Of a stretch of DNA of 41,758 nt, positions 9,141 through 24,970 are shown one piece after another (the stretch's first letter is position 1; every line of letters starts with the position of its first letter). The notes under the pieces were generated by a model. That model was not told the origin of the DNA. It saw only the letters and a list, made by a program, of their open reading frames with translations, and did not search any database. The position numbers and the translations under genes are program-made. Origin of the DNA: Salsipaludibacter albus (lineage in GTDB: Bacteria; Actinomycetota; Nitriliruptoria; Nitriliruptorales; Nitriliruptoraceae); contig NZ_JAHOPH010000033.1 in NCBI RefSeq assembly GCF_019798055.1, positions 1 through 41,758 of the forward strand, written 5' to 3'.

Positions 9141-9514
9141 AAGGGAGTCGGACGTACGCCGGATTCTGTTGCCCGTGTCCGTGAGGACCCGGGTGGCGAC
9201 CATCTGTCTGGGACGACGGTTGCCCGTCGCCTCGTGCGGCCCACCCGCAGGACCGGCGGGCCACCGTCACCTGCTGCTTGGCCTTGCTCCGGATGGGGCA
9301 TGCCCAGCCGCGACGGTCACCCGCCGCGCTGGTGGTCTCTTGCACCACCGTTTCACCCTTGCCGCGGTGGACGTGCCACCGTGGCGGTCTGCTCTCTGTT
9401 GCGCTGTTCCGCGCATCGCTGCGCCTGGGAGTTACCCAGCATCCTGCCCAGTGGAGTCCGGACGTTCCTCGACCCGGGCGAACCCGGACCGCGGCCGCCT
9501 CACCGGCTCCCTTC
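9141..9514 (-). ncRNA. rnpB: RNase P RNA, bacterial class A
   Basis: The minus strand carries the universal P RNA elements in order. GAGGAACGTCCGGACTCC (complement of 9453-9470) is the 5' core, AGGGTGAAACGGTG lies at 9359-9346, GGTGCAAGAGACCACC follows, then CCCAGACAGATGG near 9212-9200, and the ACAGAATCCGGCGTACG 3' block. The outer P1 helix pairs GAAGGGAG at the 5' end with CTCCCTTC at the 3' end, which fixes the limits to within a few bases. About 374 nt is normal for this RNA. It is the catalytic subunit that matures tRNA 5' ends. A TAGACT hexamer at 9529-9524 fits its -10 box. Confidence 0.95.
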
Positions 9515-9523
9515 GACCCGTCG

Positions 9524-9529
9524 AGTCTA
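9524..9529 (-). promoter_or_regulatory. Putative -10 element of rnpB
   Basis: TAGACT on the minus strand matches TAnnnT and ends about 8 bases before the structural start of rnpB, as expected for a transcript whose +1 opens helix P1. No good -35 was found 16-18 bases upstream. Confidence 0.45.
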
Positions 9530-9655
9530 CGTCACGGGTGGACGGTGCGATCGTGGCGGTGCGGCGCAGGGGCCCGCCCGGTCGATCGGTGGGACCGGGC
9601 CCCCGTCCCGATCGGTAGCGTTCATGGCACCGACCCACCCACAACGGGAGCACAC

Positions 9656-11089
9656 ATGAGCCTTGACGGACGCCCACTCGTCGTGGTCGCCAACCGCCTC
9701 CCGGTCTCGAAGTCCGGCGACGCGTGGCGGCCCTCGGCCGGCGGCCTCGTGACGGCCCTGCGTCCCGTGGTGGAGCAGGTCGACGGTCACTGGGTCGGCT
9801 GGGACGGCGGTGACCCCAACGTGCCCAAGCGCGTCGACGGGTTCGCCGCCGACCTGCACCCGGTCGCCATGACCGCCGAGGAGGTCGACGACCACTACTA
9901 CGGGTTCTCGAACCGGACCCTGTGGCCGCTGTTCCACGACCTGCTGGCCGAGCCGGTGTTCGACCGCGAGTGGTGGCGGACCTACGAACGCATGAACATC
10001 CGCTTCGCCGACGCGGCGGCCGCCGTCGAGGTCGACGACCCCGTCTACTGGGTCCACGACTACCACCTGCTGCTGGCCCCGGCGCTGCTGCGCGACCGCA
10101 AGCCCGACGCCACCATCGGCTTCTTCCTCCACATCCCGTTCCCACCCCCGGAACTGATGGGCCGGCTGCCCTGGAACGACGAGCTGCTGGACGGGCTGCT
10201 GGGTGCGGACGCGATCGGGTTCCACACCGAGTGGTACCGCGAGAACTTCGTCCGCTCGGTGCGGCGCAGTCGTCGCGACGTCACGGTCTCCGGCGACATG
10301 GTCCACCTGCCCGACGGACGCTCCGTGCGCACGGCCGCCCACCCGATCTCGATCGACGTCGACGAGTTCTCGGCGCTGGCCGTCGCCGACGAGACCGAGC
10401 AGGAACTGGCCGAGCTGCGTGAACAGTTCGCCAACCGCAAGGTGATGCTGGGCGTGGACCGGCTGGACTACACCAAGGGCATCCGCCACCGCCTGCAGGC
10501 CATCGAGCGCCTGTTGACCGACCGGCCGGAGCTGCGCACCAGCTTCGCGTTCATCCAGATCGCCGTGCCGTCCCGCGACGACGTCGAGGAGTACCGCGAC
10601 CTGCGCGAGCAGGTCGAGTACATGGTCGGACACATCCACGGCCGCTTCACCGAGCCGGGCCACGACGTCCCGGTCCACTACCTGTACCGCAGCGTGCCCA
10701 AGACCCGGCTGGCCGCGTACTACCGGCTGGCCGACGTCATGGCGATCACCCCGCTCAAGGACGGGATGAACCTGGTCGCCAAGGAGTTCGTGACGGTGCA
10801 GGACGCCGCCCGGGACCGGCCCGACCAGGACGCCGGTGTGCTGCTGCTCAGCGAGTTCACCGGGGCCGCGCTGGAGTTCGTGGACGACGCCGTGATGTGC
10901 AACCCCTTCGACGTCCAGTCGCTGGCCGCCCGGATGGCCCAGAGCCTGACCTTCGACGCCGACGACCGCCGCTCGCGCATCGCCCGCATGGCCGCATCGG
11001 TCCGCGAGGGCGACGTCTTCGCCTGGGTCAACGAGGAGCTGGAGTCGGTCACGATGGCCGAGCGTGCCCGGGCCGAGGTGGGCCCGTGA
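9656..11089 (+). CDS. otsA: Trehalose-6-phosphate synthase OtsA
   Basis: 477-residue GT20 retaining glycosyltransferase joining a nucleotide-sugar glucose to glucose-6-phosphate to give trehalose-6-phosphate. It shows the family blocks NRLPVS near the N-terminus, VHDYHLLLAP, FFLHIPFPPPE, GVDRLDYTKGI and ITPLKDGMNLVAKEF, which hold the donor and acceptor contacts. Full length compared with about 470-480 for bacterial OtsA. The ATG at 9656 has GGGAG six bases upstream. Its stop overlaps the otsB GTG (GTGA), so both trehalose genes are co-translated. It is divergent from rnpB. Confidence 0.95.
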   Translation: MSLDGRPLVVVANRLPVSKSGDAWRPSAGGLVTALRPVVEQVDGHWVGWDGGDPNVPKRVDGFAADLHPVAMTAEEVDDHYYGFSNRTLWPLFHDLLAEPVFDREWWRTYERMNIRFADAAAAVEVDDPVYWVHDYHLLLAPALLRDRKPDATIGFFLHIPFPPPELMGRLPWNDELLDGLLGADAIGFHTEWYRENFVRSVRRSRRDVTVSGDMVHLPDGRSVRTAAHPISIDVDEFSALAVADETEQELAELREQFANRKVMLGVDRLDYTKGIRHRLQAIERLLTDRPELRTSFAFIQIAVPSRDDVEEYRDLREQVEYMVGHIHGRFTEPGHDVPVHYLYRSVPKTRLAAYYRLADVMAITPLKDGMNLVAKEFVTVQDAARDRPDQDAGVLLLSEFTGAALEFVDDAVMCNPFDVQSLAARMAQSLTFDADDRRSRIARMAASVREGDVFAWVNEELESVTMAERARAEVGP

Positions 11090-11871
11090 CCGAACACGAC
11101 GACGTCGCACCGGCGGTCGCGCCCGAGGAGGTGGCAGCGGGGCTGCCGGCCGTGGAGGACGCCGCGGTCCTGCTGGACTTCGACGGGACCCTGTCGCACC
11201 TGGTCGACGACCCGGCATCGGCCGGTCCGGCGGACGGCGCGGCCGACGTCGTCGGGCGGCTGGCCGAGCGCACGCGGGTGGTCGTCGTGTCGGGTCGCCC
11301 GGTCGACGTGTTGCGTGGATTCCTGCCCGCCGACCTGCCCGTGACCTGGGCGGGCGGCCACGGGGCCGAGGTCGCCGAGGCGGACGGACCGATCGAGCCG
11401 GCGGCCGACCTCCAGGTGGTCCACGCCCGGCGCGACGCGGCGCAGGAGGCGCTGGAGGCCCTGCTGGCGGACGCCCCCGCGGGCTGGCACGTCGAGCTGA
11501 AGCCGACCGGGCTGGCGGTGCACAGCCGGCTGGTCGAGGATCCCTCGGCCCACGCCGACCGGGTCCGGGCGCTGCTGGACCACCACGCCGGCGACGACAT
11601 GGAGGTGTCGACCGGCCACGACGTCGTCGAGCTGCGCCCGGCCGGGGTCGACAAGGGGGTCGCGGTGTCGCGACTGCTGGCCGACGACCACCGCGTCCCG
11701 GTCGCGATCGGCGACGACGTCACCGACGAGGACACCTTCGCCGTCGCGGTGGCCGGTGGCGGGACGGCGATCCTGGTCGCCACCACGCCACGTCGGTCCC
11801 ACGCCACGATGCGGGTGGCCGATCCCGACGAGGTGGTCGCCCTGCTCGCGGCCTGGCTCGACCGGGACTGA
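11086..11871 (+). CDS. otsB: Trehalose-6-phosphate phosphatase OtsB
   Basis: 261-residue HAD-superfamily phosphatase removing the phosphate from trehalose-6-phosphate. HAD motif I is LLDFDGTL with nucleophile Asp31 and Asp33; motif II lies in VVVVSGRP; motif IV is IGDDVTDEDTF near the C-terminus. KPTGLAVHSR and GVDKGVAV match other OtsB blocks. It starts at a GTG overlapping the otsA stop. The pair is a complete two-step OtsAB route for this compatible solute. Confidence 0.94.
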   Translation: MTEHDDVAPAVAPEEVAAGLPAVEDAAVLLDFDGTLSHLVDDPASAGPADGAADVVGRLAERTRVVVVSGRPVDVLRGFLPADLPVTWAGGHGAEVAEADGPIEPAADLQVVHARRDAAQEALEALLADAPAGWHVELKPTGLAVHSRLVEDPSAHADRVRALLDHHAGDDMEVSTGHDVVELRPAGVDKGVAVSRLLADDHRVPVAIGDDVTDEDTFAVAVAGGGTAILVATTPRRSHATMRVADPDEVVALLAAWLDRD

Positions 11872-11888: not shown

Positions 11889-12743
11889 TCAGGCGTCGGC
11901 AGCCTCCGGGACGCGGCCACCGAGCTCGGCGGCCAGCGGCATCAGGATCACCGCCATCAGCACCGCGCCGACCATGACCAGGATCAGCACCTCGGGCTGG
12001 TCGGCGAAGCTGGTCGTCGCGATCAGCAGGGCGGCCGACACGTTGCGCTGGGCCGTGCCGAAGCCGGTCACCAGTCGCTGGCCCCGGGTCGACCCGCCCA
12101 GCAGGTACCCGGCGCCCAGGCACACCGCGATGAACAGCAGCACGGCCACGAAGGAGCCCGTGCCGAAGGCGTCGATCAACTGGGGCAGTCCGATGACCAG
12201 GCCCAGGACCAGCGCCAGGGCCACGGTCACCGTGGAGACCTGGTTGAGGTGGGGGGCGAGTTTCTTCGCATCGTCGTAGCGGGCTCGCACGACCAGGGCG
12301 ATCGCCAGCGGCAGCAGCATCCCCAGGATCAGTGGCCGGGCGATGTCCCAGGCCGACACCTCCACGCCCTCGACGAGCGGGACCAGCACCAGTGGGACGT
12401 AGGCGACCGTGACCACCATCAGGAGCACCATCAGGCCGACCGAGTAGGGGACGTCGGCCTTGGCGAACTGGGCCAGCTTGGGCAGGAACGGCGCGCCGGC
12501 AGCACACCCCAGCAGGAGCAGGCCCAGCTTGAGCGGATCGTCCAGTCCCAGCAGCTCGGCGATCCCCCACGCGGCCAGCGGGGCGACCACGAAGTTGGCG
12601 ACCAGCGCGAGCCCCACCAGGCGCAGGTCGGTGAGTGGCTGGACGACCTGCTGGACCGTCAGCGAGAGCCCCAGCGCCAGCATCGACGACAGCACGAACG
12701 TCAGCAGGGCGACGTTCGCGATCTCGGTCAGGACCTCGGACAT
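11889..12743 (-). CDS. Bile acid:sodium symporter (BASS) family permease
   Basis: 284-residue integral membrane protein with about nine hydrophobic segments and few charges. It fits the BASS/SBF fold in length. FVVAPLAAWGIAELL and the LLLLGCAAGAPFLPKLA segment, with Gly and Pro in a discontinuous helix, fit the family, as does GFGTAQRNVSAALLIA later on, corresponding to the conserved GxxxRN segment of the second repeat. Substrate unknown: bacterial members carry organic anions such as pantoate or other carboxylates. It is divergent from the SulP island and convergent with otsB. A minus-strand TAGCGT at 12784-12779 may be its -10. Confidence 0.82.
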   Translation of the reverse strand: MSEVLTEIANVALLTFVLSSMLALGLSLTVQQVVQPLTDLRLVGLALVANFVVAPLAAWGIAELLGLDDPLKLGLLLLGCAAGAPFLPKLAQFAKADVPYSVGLMVLLMVVTVAYVPLVLVPLVEGVEVSAWDIARPLILGMLLPLAIALVVRARYDDAKKLAPHLNQVSTVTVALALVLGLVIGLPQLIDAFGTGSFVAVLLFIAVCLGAGYLLGGSTRGQRLVTGFGTAQRNVSAALLIATTSFADQPEVLILVMVGAVLMAVILMPLAAELGGRVPEAADA

Positions 12744-12846
12744 GTGGCGCCCTGTCGCTCGATGGGTCGACGGCCGGGACGCTAGCACCCGCTCGCCACG
12801 TGACGGACCGGGTGCGCGAGGTGGCGCGTGACTAGCGTCACGTGAC
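12744..12846. promoter_or_regulatory. Divergent promoter region between the BASS permease and SulP genes
   Basis: The 103-base gap contains two TAGCGT hexamers, one on each strand: minus at 12784-12779, 35 bases before the permease ATG, and plus at 12833-12838, eight bases before the SulP ATG. The second spacing would give a leaderless or nearly leaderless mRNA. Neither has a clear -35. A CACGTGAC palindrome core (12839-12846) abuts the SulP start. Confidence 0.4.
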
Positions 12847-14655
12847 ATGTCCTGGTCTTCCGGCCAACCCGTCCCCGAACCCCAAGGACCAGTGTTGAGC
12901 GTGGACACCCACCACGAAGCGCGGGGACTGGCGCGGGTCGTCCCGATGGTGGGATGGCTTCGGACCTACGACCGTTCGTGGCTGACCGGCGACCTGGTGG
13001 CCGGGCTGACCGTCTGGGCCCTCGTCGTCCCCGAGTCCATGGCCTACGCCGGCGTGGCCGGGGTCCCGGTCCAGTATGGGCTCTACGCCGTGATCCTGGC
13101 CGTGGTCGGCTACGCCGTCTTCGGGTCGTCCCCGCGGCTGTTCGTGGGTCCGTCGTCGACGGTCGCCGCGCTCTCGGCCGTGGTCGTCGGCTCGGTGGTC
13201 AGCGGGGGTGGGGACGACTTCGTCGCCCTGAGTGCGGCACTGGCCGTCCTGGTCGGGGTCCTGTACGTCCTGGCCGGGCTGCTGCGCCTCGGCTTCGTGG
13301 CCAACTTCTTCGCCAAGCCCGTGCTCGACGGGTTCATCGCGGGACTGGGCCTGTACATCGCCGTCGGACAGTTGCCCAAGCTGGTGGGCATCGAGTCACC
13401 GGACGGCAACACGGTGCTGAAGGCGGTCCGGACAGTCGCGGAGATCGGGGACTGGTCGGTCCTGGCCGCGGTCGTCGGGGTGGCCGCGCTCGTGCTGTTG
13501 TTCGGCCTGGAGCGGTTCGCGCCGCGGCTTCCGGGGGCGCTGCTGGTCGCCGCGGCCGGGATCGCCGTCACCGCCGTGTTCGGGCTGGCCGACGTGGATG
13601 GTGGTGGGGGCCTGGCCATCGTGGGCGAGGTCCCGACGGGCTTCTCACCGGTGTCGTGGGACGGCGTCACCCTGGACGCGGTGGTCGCGATGGTGCCCGG
13701 GGCCCTGGGCATCCTGGTCGTCGGCTTCGCGCAGTCGGTGGCGATCGCCAAGGCGTATGCCACCAAGTACCACGACCCGACCGACCCGAGCCAGGAGATG
13801 ATTGGCTACGGCGCGGCCAACGTCGGCGCGGGCCTCCTCGGGGGGTTCACGGTCACCGGCAGCCTCTCCAAGAGCGCGGCCGCGGAGTCGGCGGGGGGGC
13901 GGACGCCGGTCGTGTCGTTGACCGTGGGCATCGCCACCCTGGCGACGGTGCTGTTCCTGGCCGGGGTGTTCGAACAGCTGCCCGAGCCGGTGCTGGCCGC
14001 GATCGTCATCGTGGCGGTGTGGGGGATGATCGACTTCGCGCCGGTGGTGCGGCTGAGACGAGCCGGGACGGTGGACTTCTGGCTGGCGCTCGCGGCCTTC
14101 GCCGGCGTGGTGCTGGTCGGGATCCTGCCCGGCATCGTGGTCGGCGTCGTGCTGTCGCTGATGCTGTTCCAGCACCGGGTCGATCGTCCCCACGCGGCGG
14201 TCCTGGGACGGCGTCCCGACGGGCAGACCTGGGGTGACCTCGCCGAGCACGACGACTACCGACCCGAGGCGGGCGTGTTCGTCTACCGGTGGGACGCCCC
14301 GCTGATCTTCGCCAACGCCGACCACTTCGGCCACGACCTCGCGATGCGCCTGCACGACCGGGACGAGTCGACCCGCGCGGTCGTCGTCGACTGCGAGACC
14401 TGCTTCGACATCGACACCACGGGATCGGCCACCCTGGAGGAACTGCAGGCGACCCTGGCCGACGACGGCATCGCCCTCCACCTCGCACACCTGCACGGGG
14501 AGGTCCGGGACGCCCTGGTCCGCGACGGCACGCTGGCGATGATCGGTCCCGACCACGTCCACGACACGGTCCGTGGCGCGGTCGACGCTGCGCTGGCCGG
14601 CCAGGCCACGGACCGACACGGCGACCAACGATCCACCACGGGAGATCCGGAGTGA
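12847..14655 (+). CDS. SulP/SLC26 family anion permease with STAS domain (first copy)
   Basis: 602-residue SulP transporter. The membrane domain spans about residues 45-440, beginning with LVAGLTVWALVVPESMAYAGVAG, the SulP entry signature, and containing the conserved GLLGGFTVTGSLSKSA. A C-terminal cytosolic STAS domain (about 465-585) keeps the FDIDTTGSATLEELQ loop. Characterised relatives move sulfate, bicarbonate or dicarboxylates; this one's substrate is unproven. The ATG lacks a ribosome site but has a TAGCGT eight bases upstream. A TTG about 48 bases downstream preceded by AAGGA is an alternative start. Its stop overlaps the next SulP gene. Confidence 0.9.
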   Translation: MSWSSGQPVPEPQGPVLSVDTHHEARGLARVVPMVGWLRTYDRSWLTGDLVAGLTVWALVVPESMAYAGVAGVPVQYGLYAVILAVVGYAVFGSSPRLFVGPSSTVAALSAVVVGSVVSGGGDDFVALSAALAVLVGVLYVLAGLLRLGFVANFFAKPVLDGFIAGLGLYIAVGQLPKLVGIESPDGNTVLKAVRTVAEIGDWSVLAAVVGVAALVLLFGLERFAPRLPGALLVAAAGIAVTAVFGLADVDGGGGLAIVGEVPTGFSPVSWDGVTLDAVVAMVPGALGILVVGFAQSVAIAKAYATKYHDPTDPSQEMIGYGAANVGAGLLGGFTVTGSLSKSAAAESAGGRTPVVSLTVGIATLATVLFLAGVFEQLPEPVLAAIVIVAVWGMIDFAPVVRLRRAGTVDFWLALAAFAGVVLVGILPGIVVGVVLSLMLFQHRVDRPHAAVLGRRPDGQTWGDLAEHDDYRPEAGVFVYRWDAPLIFANADHFGHDLAMRLHDRDESTRAVVVDCETCFDIDTTGSATLEELQATLADDGIALHLAHLHGEVRDALVRDGTLAMIGPDHVHDTVRGAVDAALAGQATDRHGDQRSTTGDPE

Positions 14656-16370
14656 AGCGCCTGTCCCGACCACCCCGCCCCACCGGGCTGGCCCGCCACC
14701 TCCCGGCCATCGACGCCACGCGCACCTACCGCCGCGCGTTCCTGCGGCCCGACGTCCTGGCCGGGCTGACGGCATGGGCCATGGTCGTGCCGGAGGGGAT
14801 CGGCTACGCGTCGATCGCCGGGATGCCGGCCGAGGCCGCGCTGTACGCGGCCGTGCTGGGCACCGCGGCCTACTTCCTGTTCGGCACGTCGCACGAGGTG
14901 ACGGTGGGGCCCAGCTCAGCCCTGGCGATCATGTCGGCCGCCACGGTCGGCAGCCTCGGGCTGGGCGCGAACTCGGCGGACTGGATCGCTGCCACGAGCG
15001 CCCTGGCGATCATCGTCGGGATCATGGCCCTCGTGGCGGGCGTGCTCAAGCTCGGCACGATCAACAACTTCATCTCCAAGCCGGTCCTGGACGGCTTCGT
15101 CGCCGGACTGGCCCTCAACATCATCATCGGCCAGGTACCGAAGTTCCTCGGCTTCGGCATCGACGGCGACCTCAACTTCTTCCAGTCCGTGGCCGAGGTC
15201 GTCGCCAACATCGACCAGACCAGCATGATCACGTTCGCGATGGGCGCCGGTTCGTACCTGCTGCTGATGGTCCTGCACCGGATCTCCAAGAGGATCCCCG
15301 CCGCGCTGATCGCCGTGGCAGCCAGCGTGGTCGCGGTCGTGGTGTTCAACCTCGACGACCGTGGCATCGCGGTGATCGGCGAGATCCCGTCCGGGTTCCC
15401 CACCATCGACATCCCCAGCGTCGACCTGGGCATGGTCGGCCAACTGCTGCCGGGCGCGTTGGGGATGATGGTGGTGGCCTACGCCGAGACGCTGTCGGGC
15501 GGACGGACGTTCGCCGCTCGGCGCCAGTACCGCATCGACCCCGACCAGGAATTCATCGCGCTGGGCTGGTCCAACATCGCGGCGGGACTGTTCCAGGGAT
15601 TCGCGGTCAACGGCAGCCTGTCACGCACCAAGCTCAAGTACGACGTCGGGGTGAAGACCCAGTACTCGACGCTGTTCACCGGCGTCGCCGTCGCGATCAC
15701 CCTGGTCGCGCTCACCTGGTTCTTCGAACGCCTCGCCGAGGCGACCATCGCCGCGATCGTCATCCACGCCGTGTTCCCACTCGTCCGGCCCCGGCTGTGG
15801 CCGCAGCTGTGGCGCACCGCCCGGTTCGAGTTCTGGGCCGCCCTGTCGGCGGCGCTGGTGACGATGGTCCTGGGCGAGGTGCAGGGGCTGTTCTTCGGGG
15901 TGGTCGTCGCCGTGTTCATGGTCACGGCCCGCGCCGCCCAGGCACCCGTCGCCGAGCTGGGGCACTCGGCCGCCAGCGACGCCTGGGTCGAGCTCGGCAC
16001 GGTCGACGACGCCGAACGGGTGCCCGGCGTGCTCATCCTCGACGCGGGAGCACCACCGTCGTTCGCCAACGCGGCGGGCTTCCACGACGCGATCGTCGAG
16101 GCCGTGTACGACGCCGACCCGTCACCCGACGTCGTGGTCCTGGACTTCGACGTCGTCACCTCGATCGACGTGACGACGGCCGCCAGCCTGGGACAGCTCA
16201 TGGACGAGCTGTCAGCCCTCGACGTCGAACTGCACCTGGCCCGCGTCCGGCCCGAGGTGCTCGCAGAGCTGCGCGAACAGGAGCTCGCGACGGCGACCAG
16301 GGCCGGTCGCGTGCACGCGACCGTGCGTGACGCCGTCGACACCGCACGTGCACCGGCGGTGGGCGAGTAG
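14652..16370 (+). CDS. SulP/SLC26 family anion permease with STAS domain (second copy)
   Basis: 572-residue SulP transporter. VLAGLTAWAMVVPEGIGYASIAGMP marks the start of the transmembrane domain, GLFQGFAVNGSLSRT the conserved pore-side segment, and a STAS domain occupies about residues 430-560 with SIDVTTAASLGQL. It diverges clearly from the first copy, so this is not a recent duplication. The GTG overlaps the upstream stop (GTGA), implying translational coupling and perhaps a heteromeric or sequential role. The next gene is the alkylsulfatase, 98 bases downstream, which suggests sulfate ester or sulfate transport, by inference. Confidence 0.9.
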   Translation: MKRLSRPPRPTGLARHLPAIDATRTYRRAFLRPDVLAGLTAWAMVVPEGIGYASIAGMPAEAALYAAVLGTAAYFLFGTSHEVTVGPSSALAIMSAATVGSLGLGANSADWIAATSALAIIVGIMALVAGVLKLGTINNFISKPVLDGFVAGLALNIIIGQVPKFLGFGIDGDLNFFQSVAEVVANIDQTSMITFAMGAGSYLLLMVLHRISKRIPAALIAVAASVVAVVVFNLDDRGIAVIGEIPSGFPTIDIPSVDLGMVGQLLPGALGMMVVAYAETLSGGRTFAARRQYRIDPDQEFIALGWSNIAAGLFQGFAVNGSLSRTKLKYDVGVKTQYSTLFTGVAVAITLVALTWFFERLAEATIAAIVIHAVFPLVRPRLWPQLWRTARFEFWAALSAALVTMVLGEVQGLFFGVVVAVFMVTARAAQAPVAELGHSAASDAWVELGTVDDAERVPGVLILDAGAPPSFANAAGFHDAIVEAVYDADPSPDVVVLDFDVVTSIDVTTAASLGQLMDELSALDVELHLARVRPEVLAELREQELATATRAGRVHATVRDAVDTARAPAVGE

Positions 16371-16468
16371 GGTGCAGGATCGCCGACACCACATGACGCG
16401 TACCGCCCCTCCCCCGCCTCCTTCACTGTTCCCCGGGCGGACCGTCCCCATGACGACAGGATCCGTCG

Positions 16469-18370
16469 ATGACGACGCCCAAGGACGCCACCCCCACCAT
16501 CCGTGACCAGAACTCGGCCCTGCTCGAGCGCTGGCCGTTCGACGACCGCGACGACTTCGCCGCTGCCGACCGGGGATTCCTGGGCGCCCGGGAACCCGGC
16601 GTGGTCCACGACGCCGACGGCAACGTGGTGTGGGACAACGACACCTACGACTTCCTGGCCGACGACGACGCACCCGACACGGTCAACCCCAGCCTGTGGC
16701 GCCAGTCGGCGCTGGTCGCACGCCAGGGTCTCTACGAGGTGACCGAGGGCATCTACCAGGTCCGCGGCATGGACCTGTCCAACATCAGCTTCGTCGAGGG
16801 CGACACCGGCGTGATCGTCATCGACCCGCTGATCTCCAAGGAGACCGCCGCGGCCGCCCTGGAGCTGTACCGGGAGCACCGTGGGGACCGACCGGTGACC
16901 GGGGTCATCTACACGCACAGCCACATCGACCACTTCGGCGGGGTCCGCGGGGTCGTCGACCAGGCCGACGTGGACGCCGGCAGGGTCGCGATCCTGGCGC
17001 CGGAGGGGTTCGTCGAGGAGGCCGTCGCCGAGAACGTCTACGCCGGCACCGCCATGGCACGCCGGGCGGGCTACATGTACGGCGCAGTGCTGGACCGCGG
17101 CCCGGACGGCCAGGTCGGGGCCGGGCTGGGCCAGACCACCTCGCAGGGAGAGCCGACGCTGATCCCGCCGACCCTGGACATCACCCACACGGGCCAGGTC
17201 GAGACGGTCGACGGCGTCACGATGGAGTTCCAGATGGCCCCCGGCACCGAGGCGCCGGCGGAGATGCACTTCCTGTTCCCCGACCGCAACGCGTTGTGCA
17301 TGGCCGAGAACGCCACGCACAACCTCCACAACCTGCTCACACTCCGGGGCGCCCTGGTGCGCGACCCGCACGTGTGGTCGATCTACCTGACCGAGGCGAT
17401 CGACCTCTTCGCCGACCGGGCCGACGTGGTGTTCGCGTCGCACCACTGGCCGACCTGGGGTCGCGAGGAGCTGCGCGAGTTCCTGTCGATCCAGCGTGAC
17501 CTGTACGCGTACCTCCACGACCAGACCCTGCGGATGCTCAACCGGGGGATGACCGGCTCCGAGATCGCGGAGGCCATCCAGCTGCCCCCGGCACTGGAGG
17601 CAGCCTGGAGCACGCACGGCTACTACGGGTCGGTCAGCCACAACGTCAAGGCCATCTACCAGCGCTACATGGGCTGGTACGACGGCAACCCGGCCAACCT
17701 GTGGTCCCACACACCCGCCGAGGCCGGCCGTCGCTACCTCGACTTCATGGGCGGCGCCGATGCCGTCGTGGACAAGGCCCGTGCGTCGTTCGACGAGGGC
17801 GACTTCCGCTGGGTGGCCGAGGTGGTCAACCACGTGATCCAGGTCGACCCCGACCACGCCGATGCCAGGGAGCTGCTCGCCGACACCTACGAACAGCTGG
17901 GCTACGGGTCCGAGAACGGCACGTGGCGAAGCGTGTACCTGTCCGCCGTGCACGAGCTCCGCCGGGGCAACTTCGGGACACCGACCACCACCGCCGCCCC
18001 CGACCTGTACGCGCAACTGAGCCCCACGCAACTGTTCGACGCCCTGGCGATCCAGGTCGACGCGCCGGCGTGCTGGGACGACCACCTCACCCTGGACGTC
18101 GAGCTGACCGATGGGGACACCTACCGCCTGACGCTGCGCAACGGCGTGCTGTCGTACTCGTCGGCGGCCCAGTCCGGCGATGCCGACATGAGGCTGACCC
18201 TGTCGCGCGCGGCCCTGCTGGGCGTGGCCACCGGGCAGGTCGGCCCGGACGGCTTCGCCGAGGCCGGTGTCGAGGTGGCTGGTGACGAGGCGGTGCTGGC
18301 GCGACTGCTGGCCGTGCTCCAGCCCGGTGACCCCGACTTCCCCGTCCTGACCCCCGCCGACGCCGGCTGA
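16469..18370 (+). CDS. Alkyl/aryl sulfatase, SdsA1/BDS1-type metallo-beta-lactamase fold
   Basis: 633-residue type III sulfatase that hydrolyses primary alkyl sulfates such as dodecyl sulfate to alcohol and sulfate with a binuclear zinc site. Metal motif THSHIDHFGG has ligands His150, His152, Asp154 and His155; AENATHNLHNLLTLRG (Glu280, His284) and the SHHWPTW block (His325) complete the site. A dimerisation region and a C-terminal SCP2-like domain (about 510-630) follow, as in the family. No signal peptide is visible, unlike the secreted Pseudomonas enzyme, so it should be cytosolic. It sits between SulP genes, which fits uptake of the ester or handling of the released sulfate. Confidence 0.9.
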   Translation: MTTPKDATPTIRDQNSALLERWPFDDRDDFAAADRGFLGAREPGVVHDADGNVVWDNDTYDFLADDDAPDTVNPSLWRQSALVARQGLYEVTEGIYQVRGMDLSNISFVEGDTGVIVIDPLISKETAAAALELYREHRGDRPVTGVIYTHSHIDHFGGVRGVVDQADVDAGRVAILAPEGFVEEAVAENVYAGTAMARRAGYMYGAVLDRGPDGQVGAGLGQTTSQGEPTLIPPTLDITHTGQVETVDGVTMEFQMAPGTEAPAEMHFLFPDRNALCMAENATHNLHNLLTLRGALVRDPHVWSIYLTEAIDLFADRADVVFASHHWPTWGREELREFLSIQRDLYAYLHDQTLRMLNRGMTGSEIAEAIQLPPALEAAWSTHGYYGSVSHNVKAIYQRYMGWYDGNPANLWSHTPAEAGRRYLDFMGGADAVVDKARASFDEGDFRWVAEVVNHVIQVDPDHADARELLADTYEQLGYGSENGTWRSVYLSAVHELRRGNFGTPTTTAAPDLYAQLSPTQLFDALAIQVDAPACWDDHLTLDVELTDGDTYRLTLRNGVLSYSSAAQSGDADMRLTLSRAALLGVATGQVGPDGFAEAGVEVAGDEAVLARLLAVLQPGDPDFPVLTPADAG

Positions 18371-18401
18371 GCGGACCGATGACTCGCTCCGCTCCCGCGT
18401 C

Positions 18402-20201
18402 GTGACGGACGCCGCCGAGCCGGTCGCCGACAGCGGCCTGCGTGCCTGGTGGGGGCGCGTGAAGCCGCCACCGGGGGCGATGGGCCCGGCGGCCGGGGCC
18501 GGACTGCCCGGCGCCATCGGCGGCGTGCCCGACGGCATGGCCGCCGCGACGCTGGCCGGGGTGAACCCCATCCACGGGCTCTATGCCACCGCGGTCGGGC
18601 GGATCGCGGGTGGGCTGACCGCGAGCTCGCAGTTGATGGTGGTCACGACCACCAGTGCGGCGGCGCTGGCGGCCGGGTCGGCGCTGGCACCCGTGGCGTC
18701 CGAGGACCGCCTCGCGGCGCTGTTCCTGCTGACGATGCTCGCCGGTGCGGCGATGGTCGTCGCCGGCCTGGTCGGACTCGGGCGGTTCACCGGGTTCGTG
18801 TCACACTCGGTGATGATCGGCTTCCTGACCGGGGTCGCCGCCAACATCGTGCTCGGCCAGGTCCAGGTGGTCGCCGGCGTGGCCGACCCCGACGGCGGCT
18901 CGTCCCTGACACGGGCCTGGGACGTGGTGACCCATCCGGGCACCTGGGACCTGCCCACCATGCTGGTCGCCGGGCTGGCCTTCGCCCTGCTGCTGGGGCT
19001 TGCCCGGACCCGACTCGCACCGGCCGGCTCGGTCGTGGCACTCGTGGCCACCGCGGTGGCCGTGTGGCTGCTGGACGCCGGCGGCGTGGCCCTGGTTCGC
19101 GACGCGGGCGACATCCCGCAGGGCCTGCCACTGCCCGCCCTGCCGCAGTTGCGGCTGGTGTCGCTGGACCTGTTGGCCGGCGCGGCCGCCGTGGCCGTGA
19201 TCGTGCTGGTCCAGAGCGCCGGCGTGGCCGAGTCGGCCCCGAACCCGGACGGGCGCCGGGCCGACGCCGACCGGGACTTCGCCGCCCAGGGAATCGCCAA
19301 CCTCGTGGCCGGACTGTTCCGCGGGATGCCGGTCGGGGGCTCGGTTGGCCAGACCGCCATCAACGTGGCGTCGGGGGCCAGCAACCGATGGGCGGCGATC
19401 CTGTCCGGGGCATGGGTCCTGGTCGTGCTCGTGCTGCTGTCGGGCGTCGTCGGGGCGGTCCCGTCCGCGACCCTGGCGGCGGTACTGGTGGTGGCCTCCC
19501 TCGGTGGCATTCGGCCGACGACGATCGCCTCGGTGTGGCGGGCCGGGCCACAGTCACAGGTCGCGATGGTGACCACGTTCGTCGCCACCCTGTTCCTGCC
19601 GGTCGCCGCGGCGGTCGGGATCGGCGTGGCGCTGTCCCTGATCCTGCAGGTCAATCGCGAGTCGATGGACCTCCGGGTCGTCGAGCTGGTGGAGCTGGGC
19701 GACGGCCGCATCCGCGAGCAGGAACCGCCCGCGGTGCTTCCCGACGGATCGGTCACGACCCTGGACGTGCATGGCAGCCTGTTCTACGCCGGCGCCCGAT
19801 CGCTGGAGTCGGTCCTGCCGGACCCGACCGGGGTGCACGAACCGGTCGTGGTGCTGCGCCTGCGTGGCCGCGCCTCGCTGGGGGCCACGGCCTTCACGGT
19901 GCTGTCGCACTACGCCGAGCGGCTGGCCGAGGCGGGCGGCAAGCTCTACGTCAGCGGCCTCGACCCCGACCTGGCGGCAGCGTTCCACCACGTCGTCGAC
20001 CTCGACCTGGCCCAGCACATCGAGGTGTTCCCGGCCCGTCCCGTCCTGGGCGAGTCGACCCGGGCTGCGAAGGGCCATGCCCGGGCATGGCTGCTCGAAC
20101 GCAGCCCCGAGCTGGACGTCGACGAGCCGAGGAGCCGACCCAGCCCGCTCGTGCGCGGCTGGAACTGGCTGCGTGACCGGGTACGGCCTCCCTCGCCCTG
20201 A
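18402..20201 (+). CDS. SulP/SLC26 family permease, divergent third copy
   Basis: 599-residue membrane protein of the SulP superfamily. The entry segment is VPDGMAAATLAGVNPIHGLYA, equivalent to the VPQGMAYA motif, and GLFRGMPVGGSVGQTAIN corresponds to the conserved GSxSRT region. A C-terminal STAS-like domain (about 430-560) is present but lacks the acidic DxxG loop and instead has RASLGATAFTVL. It belongs to a different subgroup from the two copies upstream. The GTG start has no good ribosome site, so the first residues are uncertain. It begins 31 bases after the alkylsulfatase stop and is probably in the same transcript. Confidence 0.85.
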   Translation: MTDAAEPVADSGLRAWWGRVKPPPGAMGPAAGAGLPGAIGGVPDGMAAATLAGVNPIHGLYATAVGRIAGGLTASSQLMVVTTTSAAALAAGSALAPVASEDRLAALFLLTMLAGAAMVVAGLVGLGRFTGFVSHSVMIGFLTGVAANIVLGQVQVVAGVADPDGGSSLTRAWDVVTHPGTWDLPTMLVAGLAFALLLGLARTRLAPAGSVVALVATAVAVWLLDAGGVALVRDAGDIPQGLPLPALPQLRLVSLDLLAGAAAVAVIVLVQSAGVAESAPNPDGRRADADRDFAAQGIANLVAGLFRGMPVGGSVGQTAINVASGASNRWAAILSGAWVLVVLVLLSGVVGAVPSATLAAVLVVASLGGIRPTTIASVWRAGPQSQVAMVTTFVATLFLPVAAAVGIGVALSLILQVNRESMDLRVVELVELGDGRIREQEPPAVLPDGSVTTLDVHGSLFYAGARSLESVLPDPTGVHEPVVVLRLRGRASLGATAFTVLSHYAERLAEAGGKLYVSGLDPDLAAAFHHVVDLDLAQHIEVFPARPVLGESTRAAKGHARAWLLERSPELDVDEPRSRPSPLVRGWNWLRDRVRPPSP

Positions 20202-20215
20202 TCAGGCGGGCGTGC

Positions 20216-20701
20216 TCACTCGGCGAAGGCCTCGCGGAGGGCCTCTTCGTCCTCGACACTGAGGTTGGTGCGGATCAGTTCGGCGTGCGACAGGTCGACC
20301 TGCTCGTGGATGCGGTCCACGACCGCGTCCGACGACATCAGGAACAGGGCCGACGTGCCCTCGGTGACCGAGTCACGCACGCTGTCGATGAAGTCGTCAT
20401 CGATCCCGAAGTCGGTGAGCGAGCCACTGAGCGCGCCCATCGCAGCCCCGAAGGCCATGCCGAACAGCGGGACGAAGAAGATCAGCCCGAACAGCATTCC
20501 CCAGAACGCTCCGCTGGCCGCACCGGCGCCGGCGGTCGAGAACGCCTGCTTGGTCTTGGGCTTCTTGGCGCCGTCGGGCCAGGTCACCACGGCGGCGTCG
20601 TGGACGGTGATCAGCTCCTGCTTCTGCAGCGAGCCGAGCTGTTCACGGACCTGCTCGGCCGCGCCGGCGTCGTCGAACTTCCAGACGGTGAGGGTTGCCA
20701 T
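20216..20701 (-). CDS. DUF1269 domain protein
   Basis: 161-residue protein of the DUF1269 family, recognised by the N-terminal LTVWKFDD strand, the VHDAAVVTWPDG block and a Gly/Ala/Phe-rich hydrophobic hairpin at about 64-93 between charged ends. The hairpin could insert in or associate with the membrane. No enzymatic function is established for the family. ATG at 20701 with GAGG about nine bases upstream. It is convergent with the third SulP (14 bases between stops). A promoter at 20756-20785 serves it. Confidence 0.85.
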   Translation of the reverse strand: MATLTVWKFDDAGAAEQVREQLGSLQKQELITVHDAAVVTWPDGAKKPKTKQAFSTAGAGAASGAFWGMLFGLIFFVPLFGMAFGAAMGALSGSLTDFGIDDDFIDSVRDSVTEGTSALFLMSSDAVVDRIHEQVDLSHAELIRTNLSVEDEEALREAFAE

Positions 20702-20844: not shown

Positions 20845-21363
20845 ATGGCCTCCTACGTCCTGTCCCTGATCGGCACCGACCGCACCGGCCTGGTCGCGGC
20901 GGTGGCCGACGTGGTGACGGACCACGGTGGGAACTGGGAACAGAGCCACCTGGGCGAGCTGGCCGGCGTGTTCGCCGGCGTCGTGCTGGTGACCGTCCCG
21001 GACGGCAACGCCGCCGCGTTCCGCACGGCCCTGGGCCCGTTGCGGGAGCTCGGCCTGCTGGACACCAGCCTGCACGAGGGTGAGGAGTCCGTCACCACGA
21101 CCGGCCCGGAACTGGCCTTCGAACTGGTGGGCAACGACCGGCCCGGGATCGTGCACGACGTGTCGCGGCTGCTGAGCTCGCTGGACGTCAGCATCGCGGA
21201 GCTGCGGACCGAGACGTCGTCGGCCCCGATGGCCGGTGGGAACCTGTTCCACGCGGCCGCGGTCGTGCGCCTGCCCGACGGCCTGGAGGTCGACACGCTC
21301 GTCGAGCGGCTCGAGGGACTCGCCGACGAGATCATGGTCGACCTGACCCCGGCCGCGACCTGA
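20845..21363 (+). CDS. Tandem ACT-domain protein, GcvR-like
   Basis: 172 residues comprising two ACT domains, about 4-78 and 90-168, each starting with a strand and a G-x-DRxG-type loop (GTDRTGLV and GNDRPGIV). This is the arrangement of GcvR and related amino-acid-sensing regulators of one-carbon or glycine metabolism. Such proteins lack a DNA-binding domain and act by protein contact. Which amino acid is sensed is unknown. It appears leaderless. Its 3' end overlaps the convergent membrane-protein gene by 32 bases. Confidence 0.88.
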   Translation: MASYVLSLIGTDRTGLVAAVADVVTDHGGNWEQSHLGELAGVFAGVVLVTVPDGNAAAFRTALGPLRELGLLDTSLHEGEESVTTTGPELAFELVGNDRPGIVHDVSRLLSSLDVSIAELRTETSSAPMAGGNLFHAAAVVRLPDGLEVDTLVERLEGLADEIMVDLTPAAT

Positions 21364-22663
21364 GCGACGACCTGGCGACAACGGCCGTGGTGACCACGGG
21401 TTGCAGGACAGCCACGGCCACCAGGGCCCACCCCGAGCGCGCCAGGACCGCCCCGACGGGCCCTGCTGCGGTCCCAGCCAGGGCCATGGCGACCACGATG
21501 CCCGCACCGACGTTGAACACCACCGTCCGGACGCGTGACCAACGACCGAGTGCCGCGCGGACCGCCTCCCGGGCCGCGTCGCGACCCGCGACGAGCATCG
21601 GTGCCAAGTACACCAGTGTGGTGACGATCGCCTGGGCCAGCACCCCGACCAGCAGCCCGAGTCCGAGGGCTGGGAGGTTCGCCCAGGCCCCGACCAACAC
21701 CACGACGGCGTCGGCCCAGGCCAGCAGCGGCAGCCACCGGCACACCGCCGCGACGCCACCCCGGGCCGAGGACATCGGCGCGGTCGATGCCGGGGCGGCT
21801 GCGACTGCTCGCACCACGCCACGACACGTCGCGGTCGCGACCCACGCGAACACGCCCAGGGCGACGCCGGCGAGCATGCGCAGGACATCCCCCGCCGACC
21901 CGACAGCACCGCTGCCGAGCAGGGCCAGCGCCGCGACCGTCACGGCGTGGCCAGCCACCGGAACCTGTCGGGCGGCCCGGGCGTCGGCGCCCGACTCGAT
22001 GCGGGTCCGGGCCATGGTCGGCCCGAAGAACACGATCGTCGCGAGCAGGGTCAGGCCGGCCCAGCCCAGCAGGTTGACGTGGAGGTGGGCGATCCGGGCG
22101 GCGCCGTACCACCGACCGGCCAGCACCCCCGTGCCCATCAGCGCGCCCAGGATCGCGCCGTGCACGAACGCGCCGTGTGCACGCTCGTAGCAGCGCACGA
22201 TCCACGCGAATCGCGCCCCCAGGGCCTGCTGGCGGCTCCGTCGGATCCGCCGATGGCCCACCAGCACCGCCGACGTGGCGACCGTTGCGCCGATGCCGAC
22301 CACGACGGGCCGGGCGGCGACCATGCCGACCATGACGGTCGCCACACCGCTGTTGAACCCGACCAGCTGCGAGTACGGGGCCGCCCCGGCAGGCACGCGG
22401 GTCAGCGTCTCGGCGAAGTGCCGGCTGAAGCCCAGGACCAGGTTGCTGACCACCCCGAGCGTGAGCAGGTGCACGGCCAGCCAGCGCCCCCCGGGGAGTC
22501 GATCGCCACCGACGAGCCACACCAGCGCCAGGGCCGCAAAGACGAGCGCGGCCACCACCCACGGGACGACGTCGGCGAACGGCGACCGACGCGTTGGCAG
22601 GTGCGTGTCGTTGCCCGACCTCCGGGTCGAGCCCGCGACATCCCGATGGCCCGGAGCCGTCAC
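21332..22663 (-). CDS. Polytopic membrane protein, NnrS/haem-copper oxidase-like, in the nirK cluster
   Basis: About 443 residues with roughly 12 hydrophobic segments. Histidines sit inside membrane segments in the patterns HLLTLGVVSNLVLGFSRHF, HGAFVHG and HLHVNLLGWAGL, resembling those that bind haem or copper in NnrS and in subunit I-type proteins of the haem-copper oxidase superfamily. No full CuB site is evident, so an oxidase role is not claimed. The GTG at 22663 is chosen because the frame upstream is Arg-rich and unlike protein and runs into the divergent regulator gene. It is likely involved in NO or copper/haem handling, by context. Confidence 0.65.
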   Translation of the reverse strand: MTAPGHRDVAGSTRRSGNDTHLPTRRSPFADVVPWVVAALVFAALALVWLVGGDRLPGGRWLAVHLLTLGVVSNLVLGFSRHFAETLTRVPAGAAPYSQLVGFNSGVATVMVGMVAARPVVVGIGATVATSAVLVGHRRIRRSRQQALGARFAWIVRCYERAHGAFVHGAILGALMGTGVLAGRWYGAARIAHLHVNLLGWAGLTLLATIVFFGPTMARTRIESGADARAARQVPVAGHAVTVAALALLGSGAVGSAGDVLRMLAGVALGVFAWVATATCRGVVRAVAAAPASTAPMSSARGGVAAVCRWLPLLAWADAVVVLVGAWANLPALGLGLLVGVLAQAIVTTLVYLAPMLVAGRDAAREAVRAALGRWSRVRTVVFNVGAGIVVAMALAGTAAGPVGAVLARSGWALVAVAVLQPVVTTAVVARSSLRSRPGSGRP

Positions 22664-22722
22664 GACGGCCCGGCTCCCGGCACCCTGTGGGGGTACCCGC
22701 AGTGGGACCGGAGGACGCCACG
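22664..22722. promoter_or_regulatory. Short divergent promoter/operator region beside the Rrf2 gene
   Basis: Only 59 bases separate the divergent membrane-protein and Rrf2-type regulator starts, so both promoters must overlap here or extend into the coding regions. A perfect 8-bp palindrome GGGTACCC lies at 22691-22698. An autoregulatory operator would be expected in this gap, but nothing closely matching a known NsrR site was recognised. Confidence 0.35.
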
Positions 22723-23169
22723 ATGGACATCGGCCTCGGACGACGCGCCGACTACAGCCTGCGCGGCGTCTTCCACCTCGCACGCCACGACGACGGGGCG
22801 TTCCGATCGGCACGCGCCATCGCCGAGGCCACGGCCGTTCCCGCGACCTGGCTGCCGCAACTCCTGACGACCCTGGCCGCCGCCGGCGTGGTCGAGTCCG
22901 CGACCGGACGTCGTGGTGGATACCGGCTGGCTCGACCGCCCGCACGGGTGACGGTCCTGGAGGTGGTCCAGGCGGTCGAGCCCGATCCGGACCCGGTGTG
23001 CGTGCTGCGGGGCGGCCCCTGCAACTGGGACGGGCGCTGCGCCTTCCACGAGCCGTGGGTCGCGGCCAAGCAGGCCTTCACCGCCCGGCTCGCCGACACG
23101 ACCTTCGCCGACGTCGTCGCACTCGACGACCTGCTGGCCGACGCCGCGGGCGGGCGCGAGGTCAGTTGA
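22723..23169 (+). CDS. Rrf2 family iron-sulfur transcriptional regulator, NsrR-like
   Basis: 148 residues: an N-terminal winged helix (about 1-75, with LGRRADYSLR, then the wing TGRRGGYRLARPP) and a three-cysteine segment Cys93-x6-Cys100-x5-Cys106. Rrf2 proteins with three such cysteines (NsrR, IscR, RsrR) bind an Fe-S cluster; NsrR senses nitric oxide. Assignment as NsrR rests on the adjacent copper nitrite reductase and is inference. GGAGG about nine bases before the ATG supports the start. Its stop overlaps the convergent nirK stop by 8 bases. Confidence 0.85.
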   Translation: MDIGLGRRADYSLRGVFHLARHDDGAFRSARAIAEATAVPATWLPQLLTTLAAAGVVESATGRRGGYRLARPPARVTVLEVVQAVEPDPDPVCVLRGGPCNWDGRCAFHEPWVAAKQAFTARLADTTFADVVALDDLLADAAGGREVS

Positions 23170-24844
23170 CGTCGACACGGCCACGCATCCACGGGTGGGG
23201 GGTGCACAGGTACGGGAACTCGCCGGCCTCGGTGAAGGTGTGCGACCACGACTCGCCCGGCTGGACCATCCCGGAGTCGAACGCCCCGTCCGGCGACGTC
23301 ACGGTGTGGGCCATGGTGTCGTCGTTGGTCCAGGTCACGGTGTCGCCGACGGCCACCTCCAGGACCGACGGCCCGTAGCCGGCCAGCGCCGCGTCCGACC
23401 AGTCGTCCTGGTCGAACTCCCGGAACACCCCGGCGCCGGGTTCGATCGTGACCGCCGTGGTGGCAGTTGCCTCGGCCTCACCGGACGCGCCCGCGGTCGC
23501 ATCGGTGGTGGGCGTCGGGCCGGAGGTCGCCGTGCCGGTGTCCGCGGTGGCGCCCGACGCGTCGTCGGTGACGTCCGGCGCGTCGCCGGGAACCGCATCG
23601 AAGATCTCCGGGTCCGTCTCGCCCTCGACCACGACCTGGCCGATCGCCCCCTTGTCGAAGGCCCGGGCAAGGGCGTGGTCGACCAGCACGATCGTCTGGG
23701 GCACCTGGCCGACCAGCTCGACCACGGTCCCGCCACCTGCCGGCACCAGGGTCGTCTGCGAGCCCCGCAGGGGAACGTTCAGCAGTGCGGCCTCCTGGTA
23801 GACGACGTCCCAGTGCGACCCGATCGGGTGGAAGTTGCTGTCGAGGTTGAGCCCGGCGTTGACGAAGTGGATCCGGGCCCGTTCCCCGACGCCCATTCGC
23901 AGCGCCCCGTCGTCGACCAGCGAGCCGACCGCGCCGTTGAACACGACGTGGCTGGGCTCTTCCGCCGACAGGGCGGCACGGTCCTCGGCCAGCGTCGCGC
24001 CGTCAGCCACGGTCGTGTAGTACTCGGACTGGACCAGGTACCACTCGTGGTCGACCGTCGGCAGCGGGACGGCGGGCTCGACGAGGATCCCCCCGAACAT
24101 CCCGTGGGAGATGTGAGACGGCACGTCGCCATAGGCGCAGTGGTACATGAAGAAGCCGGGGTAGAGCATCCGCGCCTCGATCGTGGCGGTTTCGCCCGGC
24201 GCGACCGTCGTGTCGGCCGCACCGCCCCCCTGTCCGGTCACGGCGTGGAGGTCGACGTTGTGCGGATGGGTGTTGCCGGCCGGGTTGGTGAGGGCGAAGC
24301 GGAGCACGTCTCCCACCCGCGCCCGGATCACCGGTCCCGGCGTGCCGACCACGACGCCATCGGCACCGTCGGTGACCCGGTAGCCCCAGGTCTCGTACTG
24401 GGCCCCGGTCGCCGGGTCGATCGTCGACACCTGCTCGACGATCTCGAAGGCGACGTCGACCACCGCCGGCACGGTCCGGGTGATCGGCGGCGGCATCTCG
24501 GGCGCCGTCGCGACGTTGACCTCGTCGGCGGGGGCCGCGGCCAACTCGGACCGCGGCACGAACGACCCGACCACGTCGGTGCCGGCGTCGGCAGGGGTGG
24601 CCGCGCCGGCCGTCGCCGAGTCCTCCGCCGCCGACGCCGGGCTCGCGTCCTCGACCGGCTCCGCGGCGGGGTCGGGGCGGCCGACGACCAGGGAGGTGAG
24701 CACGGACAGCCCCACGACCGCGACCAGCAGGGCCAGCAACCGGCCACCGCTGACGGACTCGACCACCGGCGTCGGCGGGGGCGTGCGGTCCGGGGGCGCC
24801 ACGGTGTCATGGGAGCGGGGACGTTGCAGATCCTGGAGCGGCAT
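23162..24844 (-). CDS. nirK: Membrane-anchored copper nitrite reductase with an extra C-terminal cupredoxin
   Basis: 560-residue enzyme reducing nitrite to NO. An N-terminal anchor (about 35-55) is followed by a long disordered region and two cupredoxin domains (about 125-410). The type 1 copper ligands are His195, Cys236, His244 and Met249; type 2 ligands His200, His235 and His390; catalytic Asp198 and His339 with Ile341. All are conserved (HNVDLH, MYHCA, FHPIGSH, VDHALARAF). After a Ser/Thr/Ala-rich linker (415-465), a plastocyanin-like domain (470-560) keeps ligands His513, Cys547, His550 and Met553, probably an electron-entry module. ATG at 24844 has a perfect GGAGGTGAT ribosome site, excluding the upstream extension. 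Confidence 0.93.
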   Translation of the reverse strand: MPLQDLQRPRSHDTVAPPDRTPPPTPVVESVSGGRLLALLVAVVGLSVLTSLVVGRPDPAAEPVEDASPASAAEDSATAGAATPADAGTDVVGSFVPRSELAAAPADEVNVATAPEMPPPITRTVPAVVDVAFEIVEQVSTIDPATGAQYETWGYRVTDGADGVVVGTPGPVIRARVGDVLRFALTNPAGNTHPHNVDLHAVTGQGGGAADTTVAPGETATIEARMLYPGFFMYHCAYGDVPSHISHGMFGGILVEPAVPLPTVDHEWYLVQSEYYTTVADGATLAEDRAALSAEEPSHVVFNGAVGSLVDDGALRMGVGERARIHFVNAGLNLDSNFHPIGSHWDVVYQEAALLNVPLRGSQTTLVPAGGGTVVELVGQVPQTIVLVDHALARAFDKGAIGQVVVEGETDPEIFDAVPGDAPDVTDDASGATADTGTATSGPTPTTDATAGASGEAEATATTAVTIEPGAGVFREFDQDDWSDAALAGYGPSVLEVAVGDTVTWTNDDTMAHTVTSPDGAFDSGMVQPGESWSHTFTEAGEFPYLCTPHPWMRGRVDVN

Positions 24845-24874
24845 CGGGATCACCTCCAAGGTCACGCGTTCTTC

Positions 24875-24899
24875 AACACCAAGTTTCTTGCTTGGTGTT
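24875..24899. promoter_or_regulatory. Perfect inverted repeat upstream of nirK, candidate operator
   Basis: AACACCAAG (24875-24883) and CTTGGTGTT (24891-24899) are exact reverse complements separated by 7 bases. The element lies 31-55 bases before the nirK ATG and is distinctly AT-richer than its surroundings. A smaller nested repeat, CAAG-TTT-CTTG, sits at 24880-24890. Position and symmetry suggest a regulator-binding site, for example for the neighbouring Rrf2 protein, but it does not match a site I can name. Confidence 0.6.
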
Positions 24900-24970
24900 T
24901 CGGATGGTGTCACGGAAGGGTGGTGTCGGCATCCGCCGAAGGGCCCGGAACCGTCGGGACCATCGGGCGA

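Follow-up and report, generated by a model that had tools for sequence, protein, structure and literature searches.

The window, that is, the whole stretch of 41,758 nucleotides analysed here, is an entire contig of a 4.25-Mb draft genome (G000). Four consecutive genes on its forward strand and their immediate flanks form the locus under study:

11889..12743, minus strand: SBF/BASS-family permease (Pfam SBF, 5e-14), divergent from SulP1, a probable partner gene.
12744..12846, no strand: divergent intergenic region with CACGTGAC-type sites at 12795-12804 and 12837-12846, a candidate operator only.
12847..14655, plus strand: SulP1, an SLC26/SulP permease with STAS domain (Pfam), with Gln296 at the proton-sensing position.
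14652..16370, plus strand: SulP2, an SLC26/SulP permease with STAS domain (Pfam), with Glu279 kept and a 4-bp overlap with SulP1.
16469..18370, plus strand: SdsA-type alkylsulfatase of the metallo-beta-lactamase fold (Pfam domains), signal peptide not evident.
18402..20201, plus strand: SulP3, of a divergent SulP subgroup (motif PNPDG), with D44, A48, Q271 and G316 and a predicted C-terminal alpha/beta domain.
20216..20701, minus strand: DUF1269 membrane protein (Pfam), convergent, a possible associated gene.

SulP2 starts with the GTG at 14652, within a GTGA that overlaps the SulP1 stop, and SulP3 starts with the GTG at 18402; the alkylsulfatase gene lies 98 bp behind SulP2 and 31 bp ahead of SulP3. 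For SulP1 an SD-like AAGGA would favour an alternative, internal GTG start near 12892, while the start of the SBF gene at 12743 was placed by comparison with a 66%-identical Isoptericola relative. Open reading frames and Pfam agree with the layout given by the sequence-only reading, namely two overlapping SulP genes, an SdsA-type alkylsulfatase and a third SulP on a single strand with small gaps. Based on the common strand, the 4-bp overlap and the short gaps, the four genes are probably co-transcribed. No convincing terminator was found between them, and the scan for promoters and terminators gave nothing informative. The CACGTGAC-type repeats before SulP1 match no more often than in shuffled sequences, which makes the operator candidate weak. 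Elsewhere in the window, otsA and otsB for trehalose synthesis lie upstream of the cluster (9278-11871), and a possible nitrite/NO module lies beside it at 21332-24913, comprising a large membrane protein with no Pfam match (21332-22945), an Rrf2-family regulator (about 22735-23169) and a multicopper oxidase with a C-terminal cupredoxin, NirK-like by eye (23162-24913).

All three permeases match Pfam Sulfate_transp (4e-87, 3e-89 and 8e-59 for SulP1, SulP2 and SulP3) and resemble the SLC26/SulP transporters AtSULTR4;1, SLC26Dg and BicA in Pfam domains, fold and length. Against the curated cut-off of 380.45 of NCBIfam TIGR00815 (sulP), SulP1 scores above (411), SulP2 just below (369) and SulP3 below (206). 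SulP1 and SulP2 contain both Sulfate_transp and STAS, whereas STAS finds no Pfam match in SulP3; in the model predicted for SulP3 (mean pLDDT 83) the fold is that of SLC26, Foldseek matches the full length to AtSULTR4;1, and the C-terminus forms an alpha/beta domain unrecognised by Pfam STAS. The permeases had been assigned to different subgroups, which holds for SulP3, 24% identical to each of the other two and placed in a separate clade with support of 100/100, but not for SulP1 and SulP2, which are 37% identical and fall on long branches within one clade together with Nocardia SulPs (95/87). The same identities bear out the accompanying claim that no recent tandem duplication took place.

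SdsA1-, PSdsA- and YjcS-type alkylsulfatases have the metallo-beta-lactamase fold and constitute the third class of sulfatases. The window enzyme is homologous to them over its full length and shares their domain order, Lactamase_B (5e-22), Alkyl_sulf_dimr (3e-63) and Alkyl_sulf_C (7e-33), as well as their metal-ligand residues. The nearest solved enzyme is PSdsA (4nur), with 694 bits over residues 3-629, followed by the further solved relatives 7tl5, YjcS and SdsA1. Among nine aligned sequences H150, H152, D154, H155, E261, E280 and H325 are invariant, which gives the HxHxDH motif with two Glu and a His expected of the two-metal site; at an offset of 19 these residues correspond to the SdsA1 metal ligands. 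The enzyme differs from SdsA1 in its genomic partners, which are SulPs, and in its N-terminus, where no hydrophobic signal stretch was evident and which is about 20 residues shorter. Based on these two features of the N-terminus, the window alkylsulfatase appears to be cytoplasmic, and its substrate would therefore have to enter the cell. The slf operon of the Psychrobacter plasmid pP62BP1 (PMC3346939) is likewise built for putative alkyl-sulfate metabolism around an SdsA1-type enzyme, SlfS, which unlike the window enzyme has a signal peptide; the partners described in the parts of that source consulted are dehydrogenases, an acyl-CoA ligase and an AraC regulator, with no SulP seen among them.

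Loci related to the window cluster are actinobacterial. With flanks of at most 10 kb taken on either side, a SulP gene was found at 16 of 80 named actinobacterial alkylsulfatase loci, where about one was expected from the genome-wide SulP density in 27 of the genomes holding these loci (P ~3e-14, ignoring relatedness). The pairing was seen in Actinotalea, Nocardia, Isoptericola, Agromyces, Herbiconiux, Streptomyces and an uncultured lineage, and SulP also occurs at 4 of 11 other alkylsulfatase loci within the window's own family. When all neighbouring open reading frames were clustered, SulP was the commonest neighbour (21 of ~91 loci), followed by LAL-LuxR regulators (15). In a tree built from 90 enzymes, the SulP-adjacent state changes at least 10 times on well-supported branches, hence the adjacency was gained or lost many times. 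Furthermore, the 4.25 Mb of the window's genome contain a single alkylsulfatase, against 8 strong SulPs and some weaker places, which together with the recurrence elsewhere argues for more than chance.

The exact order is another matter. The arrangement SulP-SulP-SdsA-SulP was absent from the 80 loci from GTDB, from those of 61 relatives and from the plasmids examined. Two Nocardia come nearest, with a SulP3-type gene after the SdsA gene and, in one of them, a second SulP 2.6 kb beyond. The SulP of Actinotalea, Isoptericola and Streptomyces lies upstream of the alkylsulfatase. The sequence-only reading had staked its sulfate-ester unit on conservation of the four-gene order across genomes; none was found outside the window's genome, so with regard to order it fails. 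What stands of it is the association itself, since co-location across about ten genera, in several arrangements and with several SulP lineages, supports a functional link between SulP and alkylsulfatase. About 80% of the alkylsulfatase loci have no SulP inside 10 kb, and on plasmids some copies also lack a nearby SulP and one has a SulP ~6 kb off; SulPs are therefore not required. A search of the open-access literature found no paper that connects SulP proteins with alkyl sulfatase, which is no proof of novelty.

Other arrangements came to light in these loci. A recurrent actinobacterial island carries paired SulPs with or without an alkylsulfatase (L141, L073, L083, L159, L172-L175). In Nocardia jejuensis (NZ_BDBU01000012.1; L066, L121, L174) three alkylsulfatase genes lie in ~35 kb around two SulPs, and in Nocardioides albus and Prescottella (L175, L173) arrays of three to four SulP genes lie within ~20 kb. 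In the window's family (L050-L059) alkylsulfatase genes almost always have a LAL-LuxR regulator gene next to them, and often one for a HerA/FtsK-like ATPase or an HdeD-like protein.

The two flanking genes recur as well. The divergent gene matches PF01758 of the BASS (SLC10) permeases, PanS/ASBT-like, with weak matches to solved members and scores below the NCBIfam cut-offs. Two Isoptericola have a 66%-identical relative flanked by the SulP and alkylsulfatase genes, and at locus L054 of the window's family ~4 kb separate a more distant relative from an alkylsulfatase, for which reason the gene is counted as a candidate partner. A DUF1269 relative, 61% identical, stands between SulP and alkylsulfatase in L050, and DUF1269 is found near SulPs in L159, L169, L172 and L175.

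The residues of the transport site differ among the three permeases. In AtSULTR4;1, alanine at Gln112, Tyr116, Ser392 or Arg393 nearly abolishes transport, while E347Q retains ~40% activity and is almost insensitive to the pH gradient (PMC8298490). At positions 112, 116, 347, 392 and 393, SulP1 has E, Y, Q, S and K, SulP2 has E, Y, E, S and R, and SulP3 has D, A, Q, G and Q, so that the full set occurs in none of them. SulP2 is close to AtSULTR4;1, with Glu, Tyr, Ser and Arg kept; Glu347 is replaced by Gln in SulP1 and SulP3, and SulP3 also departs at the other four positions and has none of the five canonical residues. From these residues, SulP2 may be proton-coupled, SulP1 is probably not, and ordinary proton/sulfate symport by SulP3 seems unlikely. 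The full canonical site is found in none of 33 linked versus 27 of 98 unlinked SulPs, proteins that are phylogenetically non-independent, and in only 8 of 57 unlinked SulPs of the same genomes. Loss of Gln112 was considered as a marker of alkylsulfatase-linked SulPs and discarded: it is striking in a small set, but many unlinked SulPs lose Gln112 too.

The SulP3 subgroup was present in 17 of 396 genomes drawn across the phylum, and the Gln at position 347 is invariant in 17 SulP3-type proteins. With the window's genome excluded, a full-length-type alkylsulfatase occurs in 8 of 16 SulP3-type genomes versus 50 of 395 overall (Fisher 2e-4), within ~10 kb of the SulP3-type gene in three of those eight. 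Among 72,556 plasmids a single one, from Rhodococcus qingshengii, gave a SulP3-type match; the top-ranked plasmid alkylsulfatase is 8 kb away from it, with SulP, GAP-family, DUF6069, TIGR00341, epimerase, hypothetical, glycosyltransferase and alkylsulfatase genes on one strand. It is conceivable, though rather improbable, that the SulP3 subgroup, its anion site rebuilt and its Glu replaced by an invariant Gln, takes up organic sulfate esters to feed a cytoplasmic alkylsulfatase, as a branch of SulPs dedicated to alkyl sulfates that spreads with the enzyme among actinobacteria.

Taken as a whole, the cluster is read, at about even chances, as a unit for sulfate-ester uptake and hydrolysis, possibly including the divergent BASS-type permease. 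In the model, the ester would be imported and split by a cytoplasmic zinc alkylsulfatase, a role suggested by its family and conserved ligands, into alcohol and sulfate inside the cell, and the released sulfate would be assimilated or disposed of. Fluxes of ester and sulfate would be supplied by the clustered SulPs and perhaps by the BASS permease. Proton-coupled uptake of anions would best suit SulP2, which keeps Glu; SulP1, where Gln replaces it, may act as an exchanger or a facilitated route, for instance to release sulfate; SulP3, with its rebuilt anion site, may carry another or a larger anion, possibly the ester itself. We infer the localisation, the substrate and every transport assignment of this unit.

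A serious, though less likely, alternative is a membrane- or detergent-stress island under LAL-LuxR control, rich in small membrane proteins, in which SulPs move bicarbonate, chloride or other anions and the alkylsulfatase detoxifies surfactants. Such islands with SulPs, sometimes without an alkylsulfatase, were seen around the Nocardia, Agromyces and Nocardioides relatives, with LAL-LuxR, SHOCT, DUF6325/DUF1269, DUF7144, AI-2E, SfLAP/GAP, DUF389 and LapA as recurrent neighbours, and they keep this alternative alive. The same SulP pairs occurring in islands that lack the alkylsulfatase (L172, L173, L175) speak against the uptake and hydrolysis unit, and DUF1269 stays next to SulP3 in the window. 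However, no LAL regulator, SHOCT, DUF389 or SfLAP gene lies beside the window cluster, and many SulP-SdsA pairs, in Actinotalea, Isoptericola and Streptomyces, lack most of the island genes; the window would be at most a reduced form of the island, with DUF1269 only.

Sulfur scavenging, in which the ester serves as a sulfur source only, SulP2 (with SulP1) imports inorganic sulfate under the same control and SulP3 is incidental, is judged unlikely. It is consistent with the AtSULTR4;1-like site of SulP2 and with two PAPS-reductase-family genes in the genome, a family that also matches in 14 of 14 control genomes. Against it, the subgroup found to co-occur with alkylsulfatase in an unselected sample is that of SulP3, whose site is the least sulfate-like.

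The window alkylsulfatase lies near that of Actinotalea (72% identical) in the enzyme tree, apart from 10 copies of its own family on a branch with support of 100 and length 0.58, which suggests that it was acquired horizontally or is an old paralogue. In a same-genus genome (G001), no alkylsulfatase was found, nor were the flanking ACT and BASS genes when sought for an empty site; the missing enzyme counts against the uptake and hydrolysis unit, though this genome is only 87% complete. That a horizontally acquired alkylsulfatase was inserted by chance among pre-existing SulP genes agrees with this grouping and with the SulP-rich genome, but is very improbable, since the pairing recurs across genera, SulP lineages and on a plasmid, and horizontal arrival fits transfer of a whole unit too.

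The proposed sulfate-ester uptake and hydrolysis unit bears on the route that takes alkyl sulfates to a cytoplasmic alkylsulfatase in bacteria. Sequence is a poor guide to the substrates of SulPs, and the subgroup link together with the site substitutions offers a directly testable transporter-substrate hypothesis. In conclusion, the SulP-alkylsulfatase link may serve as a marker for the turnover of surfactants or natural sulfolipids in actinobacteria.
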